DNA from: Bolinopsis microptera | Taxonomy: Eukaryota > Ctenophora > Tentaculata > Lobata > Bolinopsidae | Assembly: GCF_026151205.1 (NCBI RefSeq) | Contig: NC_087081.1 | Coordinates: forward strand, 9,481,246 to 9,545,245 | Direction of reading: 5' to 3' | DNA: 64,000 nucleotides | Shown here: positions 16,578-57,575 of the stretch, in pieces | Layout: every line of letters starts with the position of its first letter | Position numbering within the stretch: the first letter of the stretch is position 1 | Notes under the pieces: generated by a model | Told to the model about the DNA's origin: nothing | What the model saw: the letters and a program-made list of their open reading frames with translations, nothing else | The model's database searches: none | Position numbers and translations under genes: made by a program

Positions 16578-19500
16578 TTAAAATTTACTTCTCCAAAGGG
16601 AGACAATCTTCTCTTTGTAGTAGAAGATCATGTAACCGGGAATCATGAAACACGAACTGAAAATATTGAATTGGGTTTTAGCAAGGATAAAATTATAGAG
16701 GATTTAAGAGGACGTTGATGAAGAAAGATAAACTTACAAAGCATTTAACAGGATGATGATGAAGAAAGAGAAACTAACAAAGCATTTAACAGGACGATGA
16801 TGAAGAAAGAGAAACTTACAAAGCATTTAACAGGATGATATTGAAGAAAGAGAAACTTACAAAGCATTTAACAGGATGATGATGAAGAAAGAGAAACTTA
16901 CAAAGCATTTAACAGGATGATGATGAAGAAAATAAACTTACAAAGCATTTGAAAGGACGATGATGAAGAAAGAGAAACTTACAAAGCATTTAACAGGACG
17001 ATGATGAAGAAAGATAAACTTACAAAGCATTTAACAGGACGATGATGAAGAAAGAGAAACTTACAAAGCATTTAACAGGGTGATGATGAAGAAAGATAAA
17101 CTTACAAAGCATTTAACAGAACGATGATGAAGAAATATAAACTTACAAAGCATTTAACAGGACGATGATGAAGAAAGATAAACTTACGAAGCATTTAACA
17201 GGACGATGATGAAGAAATAAAACTTACAAAGCATTTAACAGGACGATGATGAAGAAAGATAAACTTACAAAGCATTTAACAGGACGATGATGAAGAAAGA
17301 TAAACTTACAAAGCATTTAACAGGACGATGATGAGGAAAGAGAAACTTACGAAGCATTTAACAGGACGATGATGAAGATTGAAGAAAGAGAAATTTACAA
17401 AGCATTTAACAGGACGATGATGAAGATTGAAGAAAGATAAACTTACAAAGCATTTAACAGGACGATGATGAAGAAAGATAAACTTACAAAGCATTTAACA
17501 GGACGATGATGAAGACGAAGACTCCAGGATACTGATCCTTCACTACCCACGTCGGGTTCGCCTCCAAAGGAAGACCCTGAATTGTTAAGAATATTATTAT
17601 TTAATTATTACTTCTCTTTACTGATAGCATTATAATGTTGATGAAGCCCTTTCCTAGGGATTTAAATACCGGCATCAAATAGTGATACTGTCAAACCATT
17701 TTATATCAATGTCAATTATATTTTCCCCATCAGAAGATGACAAATAATTTATCAATTAACCTGGGCTTCCAAGGTGCTGTTGTCACACCCGACAAACTTA
17801 TCATACAGTGGATACCCCTCAATGATGGACAGACCAATCCCTGAAAGTATCAGGACTGCTATAACGAGAGGACATATCACCAGCCAGCAGGCTTTGAAGT
17901 AGATATTTGGTTCATATCCTATCATATCCTTGATATCTTTGCAGAACCTGCGGAATTAATGAGCGATATTGATATTTTCACAAAGCGTGTTTAATCAAGT
18001 TACTCCATACCCCTACGACTTCTTTTTCCTCGACATAGTTCCTTGACTCCCAACTTATTATACTCCCGAGTTTAAGCTTATAAAATCCCAGCCCTAAATC
18101 AAACCCTACGTTGCAGGGTTATACAATATACATTGAGGCGAGGTAAACTTTCTAAGTTTAGTCAGTCTGTAATTCAGTACTTCATGTCATTTTTAATTTC
18201 AAAATTCAAATAAACTTTACATCAATGTATTACAGTTACATTTACAAAAGACCACAATATCTCCTATGAGGGAAAGACATGGAATATGAAAGCTAGAAAA
18301 ATATATGAAAGCTAGAAATAAGAAAAATATCGATATAGGCCGATATTTAGAACGATTCTATTTGTATTTTATATTCATTTATTGCTGTACTCTGTGAAAT
18401 TGGAGAAATATTTAATTGAAAAAATACTAACTTGTTAACGCCATATACCCAAGCCACGACAACAATCTCTAGAAAAGCGACGATGAGGAGAGGATATGAC
18501 AAGGACCAGTTATCAAGGAGGTCCACGATGTAGAGGCCTCCTTCGAAGGACATGGGAATAGCAAGGATACACAGCACCAGACAGATACCTCCTGAAAATG
18601 TTCACACGTTGGGGAATTTATAATATTTCAACAACTTTCTGGCATTATCATACGACATTTTATCATTCTTCAAATTTCAGAACAAAACATTAGTCAGTTT
18701 ATACTTTATTCACAACCATCCAAAACAAACCTGAAACAAACTCCTTCCTAATTTTATTCAGATAAGTAAACTCATCCTTAAGTGAGGTGAGGAGACTTTC
18801 CAACATGCCAAACTGAGAGTCCAGACCAAGGAGGAAGAGCATGAAGAAGAAGAGGATGGACCAAAGGGGTCCCACTGACATCTCACTGATGGCATCTGTT
18901 ATTGCTATGAACGCTAGACCTGGCCCTGATTTCAGCTCCTCAAACTTCACTCCTGGTAGTACAATGATTGGTTATTAGATTCAGTTATGACAATTATGTC
19001 ATTAATTATGACAATTATGGCATTATATTATTAATGCTACTAGAGCAAAAGAATAAAAGATGCTTATAGAAGATTTCTAACACCATCGTTGAGATTTACC
19101 GGTCTTGTGAGCTCGGTACCCCAACAAGGAGAAGATAACGAATCCGCCGAACACGCTGGTACCACAGTTAATTAGCGTAACTACTATTCCATCTGGGGGG
19201 AAGTTTAAACATTATATCAGTGTCACTTCTACTAAGAAAGCTTAATTTGAAGAAACCTAGATTTGAAGAAACAATCACATCTATTCTATAATTTTGATGA
19301 AAATAAAACCCTAGATGCGATAACCCTGCCTGCTGTCAACATTTTGAATACTCAAAGTATTAATTCACGTTCTATTATATAACCAACATGCCGATCAGAG
19401 GGGACATTTTGCTTGTTGTACCCGTGTTTTCACTGTTAACACTTTAAACTACTGTACCTCTGATACAGTCGTTGTTGCTCTTGTTGTATGAAGAGTAAGC

Positions 19501-22500
19501 GACCACACTGCCGAATGATATTCCCAGCGAGTAGAATATCTGGGTAGCTGCGGTTCTCCAGACTGTGGGGTCCGCTAGGTGCTCCCACTGTAAGGGTGAA
19601 TATTGTTAGAAACTTTAACTTAAAATTATGTTATAGCAGTTCAAACTAGCAATGTGAAATATATTCTGAGAAATCGTTGCAGGTTGAATTTGCAATGGTA
19701 TACGAGGAAGCTGTAACTTAAACTAGAAAACATATTTATTTTTAAGCACTACTGCAATGATCACTGCTGATGTATCACAGACTTAAACCTCCATTCAAAC
19801 ACAAGGATACATTTCCTAACTTAAGATATAACGCGTACCTTTGGGGTAAGGTAGTAGAGGATGCCTTCTCTGGCTCCGGGCAAAGTGACTCCTCTGAAGA
19901 ACAGAACAACAAGCAACAGGTAGGGGAAGGTAGCGGTGAAGTAGACAACTTTACCTGACGATTCCACCCCTGAGAATAAATTAACGTTAAGTAAAGATGA
20001 GCATGTAGAGATTCATTCACAATTGATAATATATTGAGGAACACTGGCAGTACTCGAATCTAACGATAAACCTCAGCCGATCGGACTGCGGACACACTAT
20101 ACGTTTATAGGTTAAGATATTGGTCCAAAAGCAACCCAAAAATGTTTCTACATAGTGGGATTGATGAACATAGTAAATTTAAATTCGTTACAATTTGCTG
20201 GCCGTGAATAAATGGTAAAAGCGAGCGACCATTTTATTCTCGGTATCATTTTGCACTTTAATTTACTTTAAATATATCAATATGTCATTTCTTTTCGTTT
20301 GGAAAAATGTAGCACTGGTGACGGTCCAATTTACCCGATTTTGGTAAAACTAAATACAGCGAATTTTAGAGAATACAATTACACGACGAGCAATTCCTGC
20401 GGTCAGGCAACATGCAATCAGGTGATCTGCAATCAGGCGATCTGCAATTCTAGTGATTGAAAATCATGAAGTAACGGCGATAATTAGGTAGTGAATTGGA
20501 CCTAATTAACCTGATCATCAACACGCCTTTATCTTAAAAGGTGAGGGAGTGTTTGATGGGCGAGGGTCTGAACGTTGCAGTGATGTGAATTTGTGGATTT
20601 TTATTTTCAGTTGACCATTTTATGAATGCAAATGGTTTTATTTTCTACCCTGGTTTTTTGAAATTTATACCATTTTTATTTATTATTTTATTGACAGACA
20701 TTTACTTTTAGGTGTCTAAGTAACGGTAATCTTGGTCATGATCGTGATTTGTGTCCATTATTTCCGTTACTGTTATATATTGTAACTGTCCATCAGCAAT
20801 AGTTTAGATCAGAATAGTGACATGAACAACGAATACTGGAATAAAATAAGCGAAATCTTAACCAAGTGCAAATATAAATAACCTAAAAACGTCACAAACT
20901 CCGCCAAAGACGAGTTGAAAGTATTTTCATTAAATATTCGATCACTAGCAAAAAACATAACATATCTTAAAGAAGAAATCCACACCTCCTCAAAATGCGA
21001 TGTGTTATGCTTTAATGAAACTAACTGTAACATTGATAAGCTGCCTAATGGTATTGATGATATCACAATCGAGGGTTTTCACGAACCTGTTATACAAGCA
21101 CCTTTACGAAAATCGGGGAGAGGAGGTGGGTTAGCAATCTACATAAACAAACGCGTGTGCGATTTTGATCAAATTGAACGTATTGACTTAGCTCTGGATC
21201 CTGAAGACATGAGTGGCGAGTTCCAACTAGTCAAAATTCCAAGGTTATAGTAAATTTTTACAGATCACCGTCAAGAGATACAAATAAAGTCATGAGCTTA
21301 CTCGATCACGTACTTAATAGACTGGATAGACACTCACAAAAAAACACGTTATGTTTTATGGCGATGCAAATATTGATCTTATTAAATATGACACTGATTC
21401 CTCAAGCCAGAACCTCATTGACACACTGGCAAAATATGGTTTTGTTCAAACTGTTTCAAAACCAACACGAGTCACTTACCACAGTGCCACCCTTATTGAC
21501 CATGTGTACACAAATAATACTGAAAACACATTAAGTAGCAACGTGTTAACACTCGACATCTCCGATCATCTTGCAACGCTGACCACTATAAAGTTACGAG
21601 CAGTATCACAAAAGCACACCACACACTCAAATAGGACCGATACCACAAAATACCGTGAAACACGTACTATTAATGAAGCTAGCAATGCTATGTTCAAGGA
21701 GCTATTGGAAGGGGAGACATGGGAGGAGGCGCGGGAATCAGGCAGTGCGAATGAACAGTATGACAAGTTCTCAGAAATTTACATGAAACATTACAACACT
21801 GCATACCCCGTTTATAAGAGCAATCGTAATCGTCGCGAAAATGATTTAAGTTTTTACAAGTGAATTAAGCGAATTCATATGGAAGGTAAGCCCATACTAC
21901 ACATTCTTTATGATTATCAGCTCAGTATCTACCTAATTGTGGATTCTGTGTTCAAATAATCGCAAAAAATGAACAAAATTGCCCATATCTCAGTTCGCAA
22001 TATTTGCGAAACTAATTTCGCTCAAAACAATAGAACACAATAGGGTTTCAATATTTTTACATGAAATTTTCAGAATCAACGTATAATCGCATTTTGACCT
22101 TAAGTTTTAATATGGAATTTTGAGTTAGGCCTTTAAAAAAATTTGGAGGCCAAATTCTAAACAGGTTTAGGTCAAATAAAACAAACTGTGGCAGATGAAC
22201 TAATAAAAAAGCTGCCTGCAAGTGCAAGAAACCAATCAAGTGGTGAAACAAACTGTGGCAGATGAACTATTAGAAACCTGCATGCAAAAATGTGATTGTG
22301 CAGTGTGCTTGGTCAAAGCTTACTGGGCGGCGCTCAGCCTGTACTGATCACTCCACCGCAGCTTCAATCGCCTCAGCCTTAATCGACTTCAAGTTCAATG
22401 TTTTTATGAACACTTTTTTTTAATGAACACTTTTATGAACACTTTTATCAGCTGCAGGGGTCCTTAGGTAATGTCGAAGCCTTTGGATGCGGTTCTGACT

Positions 22501-25500
22501 AACAAAGAATTTCCAATCGATTACGATAACAAAAATGTGAAACAAGCGTCATGGAGTCACTTTTTAGGTATTCCGACCAATTTTTCCGTTCTAAACGGTA
22601 AAAAACGTTTTGTATTTGTAGGACACCCCAAATCAGAGCTTTTATTTGGACTGAGAGGCGGGAAAGGTGGAAATTGGAATTCAAATGAATTCGCTTAATT
22701 CACTTGTAAAAACGTAAATCTATAAATATCTACCGTTAAAATTGCCAACATTTTGAAAACGTCCAAACGTGTGAAATATAAACTAAAACCGTTTTATCGG
22801 GTTTTTTTTTCAAAAAGTGGTTAAAAACTTTTTTATTCCGAAATCAACCGTCCATAAGGACTAAGATTAAAAACCTACATGCAAGAATAAAAATTTCAAA
22901 ATTTGTGTGACTTTTTTAGATGTTTACAAAAATAATAAAATATTGATTGTAATTTCAACAAGTAAGGAGTATGTAAGGAGTATGTAAGGAGTATGTAAGG
23001 AGTAAGTAAGGAGTATACCTCTGCTCATGCATAGAAAACATACGACCCAGGCTACGATGAGTGTTCCGAACAGGTACCAATCAATTCCACCAACTGTTGT
23101 TATGTCGTTACTCGCTCCTAGAGTCTCGTAATACCTGACAAGGAGAATAATTAACGGAACTTTACTGTGCAAAATTTATATATCCAACTTAGACATCAGG
23201 CTTAGGCATCCATCTTTAAAGGTTTTCTTAAAACCGTAATTCATGTCATCAAAGAGTAGGATACTAAAACGTTAATTAAGTTTTAACACGTATTTTTAGT
23301 TTTAATTTAAAACTGAAATTCGACGGCGTGATTGGTAGCTGCCATGGTAGCTGATTGGTTATACGCAGTCTCACGTCAGAGACAGAATAGAAAAATAGAA
23401 ATGGCTCACCATTAATTAGTCACGTGGTATGAAATAAGTCTATCATTACGTCATCTACTCACCAATAGTACATAGTAGAGTTATCTTCATGTATACAACA
23501 CGTTTCAACATCAACAGGACAAGCCGACCAGGGCAGTGCTCCTGGGCAGTTAAATCAATGAGACAGATAATTTGTGAAATAATCGATTACATTTATATAC
23601 CTTTAAATTTCTACACTGTTTTTTATTAAAATCAGCGCATACTATTTGCTAATGAATATTTACCAGTGGTAAAGGAAGAAAAAAAGTATCTTAAGATCCA
23701 CATAATGATAGAGTTATAGTAGAAACTGCAGATAAGATCGAGAACCATAGCAGCGAAGCCAATTCCTCTGAAAGCTGAGTGCATCGCCTGTGGGGGTTGA
23801 AGAGATGAGATTTAACTTTTTACATGTTATGCTGATCACAAAGAACAAGTAACGACGCCAAGAATTTCTGTTCGTGAATTAATTTGATTAAACAACGCTC
23901 TGATAACACGTATTCAGCTGATGACAATTTTAAATACTCACAGAAAAAGCCCCCCTTCACTCTTTAGCCCCCCCCCCCCCCCCCCTTAACTCACAGCAAA
24001 AACCCCCCATTTTGCCCGCCCCCCTCCCTTTTGCCGCCGTCCCCCTTTTGTCCGCCCCCCCCCCCCCTCTCTTTTGACCCCGCCCCCCTTTTGCCCGCCC
24101 CCCCCCCCCCTGATCTCTTTTACCCCCGCCCCGCCCCCCCCCCTTCTCTTTTGCCCGGCACTCCCCCTTATACTCACAGCAAAAGCGCCGGGTGCTCCCC
24201 TCTTGGTGAGTTGCCCTAAAGAGGTTTCCAGGCAGAAGAGAGGTATTCCAAGCAATACCAGCATTATTATGTACGGTATCAGAAACGAACCTGACAAGGT
24301 GTTAACTTTAAAACAGATCAATATACGAACGAAATATTATGTTCAAACAGAAAATAGCAGGAAAAAATAAAACTCTATAATACAGTAACACGAAATTACA
24401 ACAACAAAAACAACCGAAAATCAGGAGCAAAACCAACCTCCACCGTATCTGTGACAAAGATAAGGAAATCTCCACAAGTTTCCTATTCCGACAGCGTACC
24501 CTATCAGGGCCAACATGTACTCTGTCTTATCTCCCCAGGAGTCTCTCTTTTCTTCTGAACCTCCCGTAGATACATCTTTATCTTCTGGTTCTAACACCGC
24601 AACTTCAACCTGTAAAACATATTGGAGGTTTATATTTGCAAGACTATAAAAAGAATGTTCACGTGAATGACCGAGTCGTGCTTTATTTTTACAATGCATA
24701 TTTTAATAAAAATAGGACCATCAGTTTGAAGTGAAGTTTAATGAAACTTGTATTGGTCAGGGTTTCGCGATAACACTCTTTGTTTCCTCCTCCCAAATAT
24801 GATAAAACAAATTATAGTGAACGTTGGCTTTGCAAAATGGTAAATAATGAGTAAATAAAAATCACCTTGTTCTGCATTGTACTTTATCCTTTTATCACGG
24901 TTTAGATCAAGTTCTAAACAACAGTTCAAATTAAAAATAAGGAAATTTTCAGCAGGTGACAAACAACTGTGCACAAAATCGGATGGCTAATGTACAGAGG
25001 TGAGCGACTAATGCCGTTTAAAATTCCATTTGCAAGAGGTGTAGTCATCAGCTTTTTAATAATCAAAAAGTCTGTAAACTAAGACTTAGCACCGCCTAAA
25101 ATTAAATTATTGTAATGGGACGGAAATTGTATCAAGGTTAATGGTACTGAAAAATCTATAACTCTATCAATAATCGGTTTTATCGTTGAAAGCGAGCTGC
25201 ACTGATTCGGGGGACAAGAGAAGTTGCTGGGAAACAGCGAAATTCTGAACGGTTTTTAATGACAGCTACGTCACAAATGATGTACTTCTTCATATGTTGA
25301 TACCGGATCATTTGCCAATTCTAAATAAACGAAGCCCTCCGAGGCTGAAAATCCCTCAAATAGGAGGAGTTACCGCAGACGCGTACACTGCATCGACGAG
25401 GTAAATTGTCTCCAACCTTACTAGTGCCATCACGAGTTGTAGGTATCTGACGTGATCCCTTAGTTCTCAGGTATGAAGATGTTTAGGGCAACCATTTTCC

Positions 25501-29715: not shown

Positions 29716-31099
29716 TTAAGGGGACATACACCAAAACCTTTTTTGCCGGGACCCGGGATTTGACTTCATATTATGAAAGTATAGATTACAACTGTAAGAT
29801 TTGAGGCATTGAAAATTTTTTTTGAGAGTACGCACATTCGAAAAAAAAATTATTTTCTTTTTCGAAAGATTTGGAAATTTTGAGAAGTCTGTCACTGTAA
29901 TACCGATATTTCAGTCATTTTAAACATTTTTTGGCTGATTTTTTTACTGAACATTATTTACAATCCGTACAAGAAGCCTTGTAAAGGATTTTACAATTAA
30001 AGAATAGATGACGAAGTTACAGACCAAACAAGGTCGAGAGAAGCAAAATTGAAATTTTTGTAAAAATCAAAGTTGTATATTTTACCATTCACCCAGGTAA
30101 TAAGATATCGCTTCAAAAATTCTTGTGAGTGTAGCTGATGATCATATCCAACTTTTTGGAGCAGGATTTCTCTCAATTTTGAGTTTTAAGGTATGAAATG
30201 TGGCCTCAAACGACTTCGTAAAATTTATCGTAAAAAAGGGCCAAACATGGCAGATTTAAGGCTTAATTTTTTTTGAAATTTTTTTTACAGAATCGTAATC
30301 AGCTTGAGAAGACGAATCTTTTAGTACCAAATTAATTATAGTTTAAGACAAAAAATTTGTAAAAAAGCGTGTACAATTTGTACAAAATTTATACAAGGGG
30401 GGACCCTCGTGTTCAAGCTAGAAAATGATTTAAGACAATTTGTCTTCTAAAATAACCTATTTGGTACTAAAAGATTCGTCTTCTCAAGCTGATTACGATT
30501 CTGTAAAAATAATTTCAAAAAATTGATGCTTTTTGAGTAATAGGCATTTTAAGCCTTAAATCTGCCATGTTTGGCCCTTTTTTACGATGAATTTTACGAA
30601 GTCGTTTGAGGCCACATTTCATACCTTAAAACTCAAAATTGAGAGAAATCCTGCTCCAAAAAGTTGGATATGATCATCAGCTACACTCACAAGAATTTTT
30701 GAAGCGATATCTTATTACCTGGGTGAATGGTAAAATATACAACTTTGATTTTTACAAAAATTTCAATTTTGCTTCTCTCGACCTTGTTTGGTCTGTAACT
30801 TCGTCATCTATTCTTTAATTGTAAAATCCTTTACAAGGCTTCTTGTACGGATTGTAAATAATGTTCAGTAAAAAAATCAGCCAAAAAATGTTTAAAATGA
30901 CTGAAATATCGGTATTACAGTGACAGACTTCTCAAAATTTCCAAATCTTTCGAAAAAGAAAATAATTTTTTTTTCGAATGTGCGTACTCTCAAAAAAAAT
31001 TTTCAATGCCTCAAATCTTACAGTTGTAATCTATACTTTCATAATATGAAGTCAAATCCCGGGTCCCGGCAAAAAAGGTTTTGGTGTATGTCCCCTTAA
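29716..31099. mobile_element. 1.4-kb foldback element with very long inverted arms
   Basis: The left arm (29720 to about 30340) and the right arm (about 30458-31095) are nearly perfect reverse complements over more than 600 bp, starting GGGGACATACACCAAAACC. TTAA flanks both ends (29716-29719 and 31096-31099), which fits a piggyBac-type target duplication, although the symmetry also continues into AATTAA/TTAATT. The short centre is unique and non-coding. If transcribed, it would form a long double-stranded hairpin. Confidence 0.9.
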
Positions 31100-53959: not shown

Positions 53960-54225
53960 CCTTTATTTTTTAACAGCTTATTTTTTAAACATTTGATCAA
54001 TTATTCTGTCTTATTTTGTTCCATTTTAAACTGTACGATTAATTGTGAGTGTGTTTTATATACATTTGAGTTCACAGTTGTGAACTTTATTTTCAGTATT
54101 TTATGTGACAGAGATTAGTTTAACTAATATTTGCTTCTCCTAAATCAGCTTATTTTTTTAACATTTGATCAATTATTCTGTCTTATTTTGTTCCATTTTA
54201 AACTGTACGATCAGTTGTGTATGAA
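53960..54225 (+). repeat. Two direct copies of an 80-bp block, 170 bp apart
   Basis: CAGCTTATTTTTTAAACATT with TGATCAATTATTCTGTCTTA and GTTCCATTTTAAACTGTACG occurs at about 53978 and 54148, just before the satellite array. Confidence 0.85.
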
Positions 54226-54235
54226 AATTATAATG

Positions 54236-55048
54236 ATTGTCACGAGATGTTTGATCTAGTTATTAGAGTTGAGCTATTCCTAGTCCTTGCTATGACAGTA
54301 TTAAAACTGCAATAGTTGTCACGAGATGTTTGATCTAGTGGCTAGAGTTGAGCTATTCCTAGTCCGTGCTATGACAGTATTAAAACTACAATAGTTGTCA
54401 CGAGATGTTTGATCTAGTTATTAGAGTTGAGCTATTCTTAGTCCTTGCTGTGACAGTATTAAAACTACAATAAATGTCACGAGATGTTTGATCTAGTTAT
54501 TAGAGATGAGCTATTCCTAGTCCTTGCTATGACAGTATTAAAACTACAATAGTTGTCACGAGATGTTAGATCTAGTAGCTAGAGTTGAGCTATTCCTAGT
54601 CCTTGCTATGACAGTATTAAAACTAAAATAGTTGTCACGAGATGTTTGATCCAGTTATTAGAGATGAGCTATTCCTAGTCCTTGCTATGACAGTATTAAA
54701 ACTACAATAGTTGTCACGAGATGTTAGATCTAGTAGCTAGAGTTGAGCTATTCCTAGTCCTTGCTATGACAGTATTAAAACTAAAATAGTTGTCACGAGA
54801 TGTTTGATCCAGTTATTAGAGTTGAGCTATTCCTAGTCCTTGCTATGACAGTATTAAAACTACAATAATTGTCACGAGATGTTTGATCTAGTTATTAAAG
54901 TTGAGCTATTCCTAGTCCTTGTTATGACAGTATTAAAACTACAATAGTTGTCACGAGATGTTTGATCTAGTGGCTAGAGTTGAGCTATTCCTAGTCCTTG
55001 CTATGACTGTCATTAAAACTGTAATAATTGTCACGAGATGTTTGATCT
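54236..55048 (+). repeat. 79-bp satellite array, forward, about 10 copies
   Basis: Unit starts TGTCACGAGATGTTTGATCT, then AGTTATTAGAGTTGAGCTAT, TCCTAGTCCTTGCTATGACA, GTATTAAAACTACAATAGT. Variants TTATTAG, TGGCTAG and TAGCTAG mark unit subtypes. Confidence 0.95.
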
Positions 55049-57575
55049 AGATCAAACATCTCGTGACAACTATTGTAGTTTTAATACTGTCATAGCAAGG
55101 ACTAGGAATAGCTCAACTCTAATAACTAGATCAAACATCTCGTGACAATTATTGTAGTTTTAATACTGTCATAGCAAGGACTAGGAATATCTCAACTCTA
55201 GCCACTAGATCAAACATCTCGTGACAACTATTGTAGTTTTAATACTGTCATAGCAAGGACTAGGAATAGCTCAACTCTAGCCACTAGATCAAACATCTCG
55301 TGACAACTATTGTAGTTTTAATACTGTCATAGCAAGAACTAGGAATAACTCAACTCTAATAACTAGATCAAACATTTCGTGACAACTATTGTAGTTTTAA
55401 TACTGTCATAGCAAGGACTAGGAATAGCTCAACTCTAGCCACTAGATCAAACATCTCGTGACAACTATTGTAGTTTAATACTGTCATAGCAAGGACTAGG
55501 AATAGCTCAACTCTAATAACTAGATCAAACATCTCGTGACAACTATTGTAGTTTTAATACTGTCATAACAAGGACTAGGAATAGCTCAACTCTAATAACT
55601 AAATCAAACATCTCGTGACAACTATTGTAGTTTCAATACTGTCATAGCAAGAACTAGGAATGACTCAACTCTAATAACTAGATCAAACATCTCGTGACAA
55701 CTATTGTAGTTTTAATACTGTCATAGCAAGGACTAGGAATAGCTCAACTCTAGCCACTAGATCAAACATCTCGTGACAATTATTGTAGTTTTAATACTGT
55801 CATAGCAAGGACTAGTAATAGCTCAATCTAGCCACTAGGTCTAACATCTCGTGACAACTATTGTAGTTTTAATACTGTCATAACAAGGACTAGGAATAGC
55901 TCAACTCTAATAACTAGATCAAACATCTCGTGACAACTATTGTAGTTTTAATACTGTCATAACAAGGACTAGGAATAGCTCAACTCTAGCCACTAGATCA
56001 AACATCTCGTGACAATTATTGTAGTTTTAATACTGTCATAGCAAGGACTAGGAATATCTCAACTCTAGCTGCTAGATCTAACATCTCGTGACAACTATTG
56101 TAGTTTTAATACTGTCATAACAAGGACTAGGAATAACTCAACTCTAATAACTAGATCAAACATCTCGTGACAACTATTGTAGTTTTAATACTGTCATAGC
56201 AAGGACTAGGAATAGCTCAACTCTAGCCACTAGATCAAACATCTCGTGACAATTATTGTAGTTTTAATACTGTCATAGCAAGGACTAGGAATATCTCAAC
56301 TCTAGCTGCTAGATCTAACATCTCGTGACAACTATTGTAGTTTTAATACTGTCATAACAAGGACTAGGAATAGCTCAACTCTAATAACTAGATCAAACAT
56401 CTCGTGACAACTATTGTAGTTTTAATACTGTCATAGCAAGGACTAGGAATAGCTCAACTCTAATAACTAGATCAAACATCTCGTGACAACTATTGTAGTT
56501 TTAATACTGTCATAACAAGGACTAGGAATAGCTCAACTCTAATAACTAAATCAAACATCTCGTGACAACTATTGTAGTTTCAATACTGTCATAGCAAGAA
56601 CTAGGAATGACTCAACTCTAATAACTAGATCAAACATCTCGTGACAACTATTGTAGTTTTAATACTGTCATAGCAAGGACTAGGAATAGCTCAACTCTAG
56701 CCACTAGATCAAACATCTCGTGAGAATTATTGTAGTTTTAATACTGTCATAGCAAGGACTAGTAATAGCTCAACTCTAGCCACTAGGTCTAACATCTCGT
56801 GACAACTATTGTAGTTTTAATACTGTCATAACAAGGACTAGGAATAGCTCAATTCTAATAACTAGATCAAACATCTCGTGACAACTATTGTAGTTTTAAT
56901 ACTGTCATAACAAGGACTAGGAATAGCTCAACTCTATAGCCACTAGATCAAACATCTCGTGACAACTATTGTAGTTTTAATACTGTCATAACAAGGACTA
57001 GGAATAGCTCAACTCTAATAACTAGATCAAACATCTCGTGACAACTATTGTAGTTTCAATACTGTCATAACAAGGACTAGGAATAGCTCAACTCTAATAA
57101 CTAGATCAAACATCTCGTGAAAATTATTACAGTTTTAATACTGTCATAGCAATAAGGACTAGGAATAGCTCAACTCTAGCCACTAGATCAAACATCTCGT
57201 GACAACTATTGTAGTTTTAATACTGTCATAGCAAGGACTAGGAATAGCTCAATTCTAGCCACTAGATCAAACATCTCGTGACAATTATTGTAGTTTTAAT
57301 ACTGTCATAACAAGGACTAGGAATAGCTCAACTCTAATAACTAGATCAAACATCTCGTGACAACTATTGTAGTTTTAATACTTTCATAGCAAGGACTAGG
57401 AATAGCTCAACTCTAGCCACTAGATCAAACATCTCGTGACAATTATTGTAGTTTTAATACTGTCATAACAAGGACTAGGAATGGCTCAACTCTAGCCACT
57501 AGATCAAACATCTCGTGACAACTATTGTAGTTTTAATACTGTCATAGCAAGGACTAGGAATAGCTCAACTCTAAT
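55049..57575 (-). repeat. 79-bp satellite array, inverted, about 32 copies
   Basis: The same unit in reverse complement. The switch is a 42-bp palindrome (55028-55069) centred on GATCTAGATC. Blocks of several units recur with the same subtype order (for example around 55,660-55,900 and 56,580-56,870), a sign of multi-unit duplication. Confidence 0.95.

Follow-up and report, generated by a model that had tools for sequence, protein, structure and literature searches.

The closest described counterparts of the array reported here are the 'mirage' minisatellites of amphioxus, tandem repeats which lie across exon-intron boundaries in Adh3 and in the globin genes BflGb6 and BflGb9 (PMC3087553) and, by citation, also in PGBD5 and troponin C (PMC3087553; PMC3902484). 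In these two papers, the repeat units measure 10-72 bp in Adh3 and about 150-160 bp in the globins, the length of the arrays is unstable (6 versus 3 units in two BflGb6 haplotypes), and RT-PCR suggested that mirages leave regular splicing undisturbed (PMC3087553; restated in PMC3902484). Tandem duplication of a stretch carrying splice signals, mirages included, was furthermore proposed there as a source of new introns (PMC3087553). In human segmental duplications, minisatellites located at exon-intron boundaries have an average unit of 30 bp and an average of 4 units, and the reported effect is the formation of new introns and of alternative transcripts (PMC2812944). In a C. elegans survey, multiple splicing decisions are linked to a minisatellite located within an intron (PMC4039745). 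Among the open-licence papers listed, no reports of such arrays beyond amphioxus and human were found. The original mirage paper is reportedly that of Canestro 2002.

Most work on how one of several identical donors is chosen has relied on designed constructs, and in minigenes with a duplicated 5' splice site strong donors compete for a single acceptor. Hodson 2012 is said to be cited in connection with this competition. Such minigenes are designed and contain few donors, whereas the array described here, which occupies the last intron of a glycine transporter-like SLC6 gene of a ctenophore, is a natural row of 19. As in the amphioxus mirages, the repeat spans the exon-intron boundary, including the end of the exon, its units carry and thereby multiply a splice signal, and the unit size is comparable. 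It differs from the amphioxus globin mirages by its higher copy number and its ctenophore host. A search of this genome with an Antennapedia-type homeodomain gave no match above 55% identity, and that one spanned 38 residues, which sets the genome apart from amphioxus. By its structure the SLC6 array is thus a mirage-type minisatellite, a kind of repeat that is known but rarely described. Compared with the human boundary repeats, the intron is here probably older and the array is located in a surviving full gene. Tandem duplication involving splice signals is common to the SLC6 array and to the intron-gain model, but a new intron position was not found here.

The window, which is the whole stretch of 64,000 nucleotides analysed (contig C10:9481246-9545245), has a GC content of 38%; the genome searched for related sequences comprises 264,652,675 bases on 232 contigs, with a contig C1 of 26.2 Mb. 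A profile search placed SNF exon matches above the cut-off for the SLC6 gene at C10:9499081-9505791. When its last three exons were joined, they matched the Pfam SNF domain (PF00209) with an E-value of 2.8e-8 (33.4 bits, cut-off 27), and a join of exons encoding 357 residues matched glycine transporter 2 at 6e-86, in an alignment that covers residues 2-273 and lies upstream of the array-bearing exon. The SLC6 identity which an earlier note on this DNA, made from the sequence alone, had given to the flanks of the repeat is supported by these two matches, and membership of the family follows from the SNF domain. The penultimate coding exon, numbered 13 in the earlier note, ends inside TM12, and the last exon continues TM12 in frame (Table 1).

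Table 1. Features of the array-bearing SLC6 gene (positions in the window) and of the four other loci with arrays at apparent exon ends (positions on contig C1).
Feature	Position	Strand	Basis or remark
GlyT-like SLC6 gene	16578..24702 (5' limit provisional)	(-)	SNF exon matches, exon reading, glycine transporter 2 match
Upstream exon, TM11 region	17761..17947	(-)	Frames and splice signals read
Penultimate coding exon (89 nt), in which TM12 begins; its final 28 nt recur as the exonic portion of each repeat unit	17488..17576	(-)	
Intron, 831 nt, phase 2, nearly all tandem repeat	16657..17487	(-)	
Minisatellite, unit of ~41 bp, 19 donor-bearing copies, copy 1 includes the exon end	16686..17515	(-)	TRF and donor reading
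Donor 1, GTAAGT	17482..17487	(-)	Sole donor yielding the full-length C-terminus
Decayed 20th unit beside the 3' splice site, donor lost	about 16685..16722	(-)	Alignment to unit
Last coding exon including stop	16578..16656	(-)	
L011: Sushi exon, 44 donor copies	C1:426500-432500		Sushi 1.2e-8 on two joined exons; exon alone 0.002, below cut-off
L012: dynein heavy chain exon, 5 donor copies	C1:882500-887500		phmmer 8.9e-7; no Pfam match
L013: last intron of Img2-domain gene, 39 donor copies	C1:4180000-4185500		1.1e-7, 32.4 bits, under the curated cut-off of 34.4
L015: unnamed ORF, 37 donor copies	C1:35000-40000		Open frame alone

The array was recovered by TRF as 20.0 copies of a 41-bp unit (91% matches, score 1296), with a second register of 48 bp between 17332 and 17515. 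Nineteen copies, read on the minus strand, carry a donor at the identical place in the unit, with the +1 G running from 17487 to 16737 and a spacing between consecutive donors of 41 nt in 14 of 18 cases, the remaining spacings being 40 nt (2/18) and 48 nt (2/18). All 19 donors have kept GT and 17 read GTAAGT, the exceptions being copy 3 (GTAAAT) and copy 18 (GTTAGT). The earlier description of the last SLC6 intron as an almost uninterrupted minisatellite of about 19 copies of a 41-bp unit, which presents a row of near-identical donors, was therefore accurate. So was the reading of the unit as exon end plus donor, except that its exonic part is not 27 nt long: donors 1 and 2 have 28 exact bases in common upstream and 19 downstream. 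The 20th unit scores 45 when aligned to the unit, compared to 27 for the best of 5000 base shuffles, and has AT in place of the donor GT.

All 19 possible donor-acceptor joins were translated, and the full C-terminus was obtained from donor 1 only. In the frame of the exon, the GTAAG of donor 1 is read as TTG TAA, so that donors 2-19, including those that follow a 48-bp unit, yield one shared truncated product, ...VLLNAL*; retention of the intron would meet the identical stop. A premature stop, the feature of a poison isoform, is thus introduced by the outer donor in 18/18 cases, and this stop ends 37 nt short of the junction when copy 2 is used, and 85 to 746 nt short of it with copies 3-19. 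The outcome is binary: full length via donor 1, or a single truncated form. Since the donor 1 stop precedes every outer donor, repeat length cannot vary the C-terminus through the reading frame, and the proposal that steps of 41 nt would alter the C-terminus, with 48-bp variants keeping the frame, is not borne out; frame-keeping 48-bp units were ruled out as an isoform mechanism for the same reason. What repeat length could alter is only the share of productive mRNA. Messenger RNAs with a premature stop are often removed by nonsense-mediated decay under the usual junction rule, provided that this animal follows it.

Variation among the 19 units was used to examine the upkeep of the donors. The donor columns depart from the majority base in 2 of 114 cells, compared to 29 of 665 cells in the other columns, so that no special conservation of the donor columns was detected across the 19 units (Fisher test, p = 0.30). 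Departures number 14 among the 513 cells of the 27 exon-like columns and 15 among the 152 cells of the other 8 intronic columns, the latter mainly at one A/C site. Homogenisation of the repeat would be enough to maintain the donors, and nothing in the array points to selection on the outer ones.

Local properties do not set donor 1 apart either. Pairing with U1 is at -5.4 in 15 of the 19 copies, donor 1 among them, at -5.7 in two and clearly weaker in two others. Predicted accessibility of donor 1 is 0.089, which ranks fourth of 19, with values of 0.030-0.149 for the others and of 0.39 for copy 3; RNA folding was rejected as the chooser of donor 1, there being no clear difference in accessibility. 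As the outer donors match donor 1 both in U1 pairing and in accessibility, nothing local explains a preference for it, and if donor 1 is preferred, context must therefore act. Classic constructs with a duplicated donor often splice from the site closest to the 3' splice site, and on that pattern donor 1 would be at a disadvantage. When several U1 particles sit on alternative 5' sites at once, this is described in a review as affecting choice and not efficiency, unless the sites are very close (PMC5389562). The effect on choice counts against a preference for donor 1, and the unchanged efficiency counts for an array that is tolerated (PMC5389562).

The history of the array can be followed through a partial duplicate of the SLC6 gene, which comprises its 3' part and is located 52 kb away on the same contig (L001, C10:9444900-9450500). 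This copy is a young, 5'-truncated pseudogene: its similarity to the gene ends at about window position 20739, and the upstream exons of the gene had no match in the 15.6 kb fetched around it. Its exons contain deletions of 22 bp, 2 bp and 1 bp, as well as substitutions at about 2% of the positions aligned (52 of 2601). The same unit is present in the pseudogene in 5 copies, compared to 19 in the gene; GT is kept in 4 of them and the first donor is broken (TTAAGT). Because the pseudogene array ends in the same decayed unit as that of the gene, the array predates the duplication, and its length has since changed in one or both copies.

Eight paralogue loci were read. A distant SLC6 paralogue (L007, C10:2.257 Mb) has an intron at the same residue and in the same phase 2, 208 nt long by our reading; no array was present in this intron at the homologous position, and the last exon is comparable to, and in the same frame as, that of the SLC6 gene. 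In five of the eight loci (L003-L006 and L010) TM12 is encoded without an intron there, and L008 and L009 were left out of this tally of intron presence and absence. In TRF output for eight other SLC6 loci, no donor-unit array was recognised at the 3' end. As L007 has the homologous intron without an array, the array probably arose later than the intron. SLC6 exon matches also formed two similar sets, at C10:2250692-2257937 and at C53:10483-20039; C53 is small and possibly represents the other haplotype or a recent duplicate.

Similar arrays were sought elsewhere in the genome with threefold repeated donor-type motifs. Among the matches listed, nine other arrays with repeated GTAAGT-type motifs were inspected (L011-L016, L017 together with L020, L018 and L019); these were fetched from 5 of 7 arrays for AGGTAAGT x3 (leaving out C1:761375, whose unit is as in L015, and C1:3114174), 3 of 8 for GTAAGT x3 (L016 appearing only there) and 3 of 3 new arrays for AAGGTAAGT x3. 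Four of the nine (L011, L012, L013 and L015) lie at apparent exon ends, and in these the unit takes in the last 29-41 bases of the exon, so that four other genes of this genome appear to carry boundary arrays too. In the other five no exon end was recognised by eye, without annotation. The protein of L013 had no match in PDB, and its Img2-domain gene product is presumably mL49 of the mitochondrial large ribosomal subunit. L015 gave no family match in Pfam or PDB, and the donor multiplied there, GTACTT, lies on the other strand from the search match. Measured from donor 1, an in-frame stop starts after 1 nt in the SLC6 gene, 8 nt in L011, 1 nt in L012, 6 nt in L013, and 12 or 44 nt in L015, depending on which of two open frames is genuine. 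The donor consensus itself is prone to contain stops, so that nothing firm follows from these distances. At L012, part of the dynein exon seems to be duplicated upstream of the donor array. A span of ~7 kb of 34-bp repeats with AAGGTAAGT (C2:21866316-21873721, L017 and L020) shows no recognisable exon end.

Match counts over the whole genome were 17,414 for GTAAGT x3 and 3,146 for the reversed pattern, 1,464 versus 12 for AGGTAAGT x3, and 484 versus 1 for AAGGTAAGT x3. A control 8-mer of the same composition, AGTGAGAT x3, gave 1,011 matches and its reverse 1,021; because these two counts are similar, match counts reflect a few large arrays, and a genome-wide enrichment was not established. Over the first 6.7 Mb of C1, at least 7 separate arrays were counted for AGGTAAGT and at least 1 for AGTGAGAT, which is suggestive in favour of AGGTAAGT, on small numbers.

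We consider it likely that splicing of the SLC6 gene relies mainly on donor 1 and that its array is a mirage which is tolerated, not one selected as a switch. Slippage or unequal exchange at the exon-intron boundary would have built up the array within an intron that already existed. Donor 1 would be mostly used, since it alone ends the true exon, has the 3' splice site and the enhancers of that exon close by, and comes first in transcription. The outer donors would be decoys at most, and the mRNA from their use, with its premature stop, would often be decayed if the junction rule holds in this animal. This reading is supported by the arrays in the Sushi, dynein and Img2 genes, which presumably still need splicing, by the undisturbed splicing reported for amphioxus (PMC3087553), by the donor columns being no better kept than the others, and by the 19 join products, the L007 intron without an array and the 5-copy pseudogene array. 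A regulatory dial, in which donor 1 competes with the decoys and the unproductive share, set by repeat number or by splicing factors, adjusts transporter output, appears rather unlikely to us; the 17 intact GTAAGT donors, the in-frame stop in every outer use and the difference in copy number between gene and pseudogene fit it, but the donor columns show no special upkeep, like arrays occur in unrelated genes, as expected of a mutational habit, and the mirages of amphioxus reportedly splice normally (PMC3087553). That the truncated ...VLLNAL* form would be the main or a major functional product, as which it could arise from all 18 outer donors or from intron retention, is very unlikely: TM12 would be cut short, the last exon, in which TM12 runs on in frame, would be lost, and L007 has a comparable last exon in the same frame.

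Two further explanations concern the origin of the array itself. Tandem arrays are hard to assemble, and the copy number or even the array could be an assembly artefact; given the many variants between copies, and an independent array 52 kb away that shares both the unit and the decayed copy at its end, this is highly unlikely. Recent gain of the intron by tandem duplication of an exonic segment, which the array would then mark, has a precedent in the proposal that mirage repeats are a source of new introns (PMC3087553), but was rejected as extremely unlikely on the L007 intron, whose position at the same residue and phase indicates that the intron probably predates the array; for the intronless loci L003-L006 and L010, loss is as possible as gain.

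Were such arrays tolerated, the splicing machinery would have to disregard 19 to 44 near-identical donors. Between 5 and 44 near-identical donors stand in a row in real genes of this genome, and the SLC6 gene offers an unambiguous readout, since full-length protein is obtained there from the first donor only. Mirage arrays, described for amphioxus in the papers found, appear to extend to another animal lineage, and arrays of differing copy number allow the growth and decay of boundary repeats to be studied. We tentatively suggest, as a possibility that we would not yet call probable, that boundary arrays recur across unrelated genes of this ctenophore, one of them coding for a mitochondrial ribosomal protein, that their 5, 19, 37, 39 and 44 donors form a natural dose series in which the first donor, that of the exon itself, is selected from among dozens of nearly identical ones, and that arrays may persist where misuse is stopped at once (after 1, 8, 1 and 6 nt in the four whose frame has homology support).

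The window contains several other repeats. Within the SLC6 gene, an 11-bp array of 5 copies (22962-23016) starts just inside the intron after the TM4 exon, C-rich tandem repeats occupy 24003-24167 in the intron after the TM2 exon, and plus-strand ORFs of 122, 109 and 177 aa in an intron (20882-21863) are, by eye, candidate retroelement remnants. An inverted repeat at 29716-31099 is marked by ORFs of 64 aa and 62 aa that recur on the opposite strand, around position 30407 or so. At 54219-57574, TRF found two 79-bp minisatellites head to head, one of about 10.5 copies and one of about 32. The consensus unit of each is the reverse complement of the other, and together they form a 3.3-kb inverted array.
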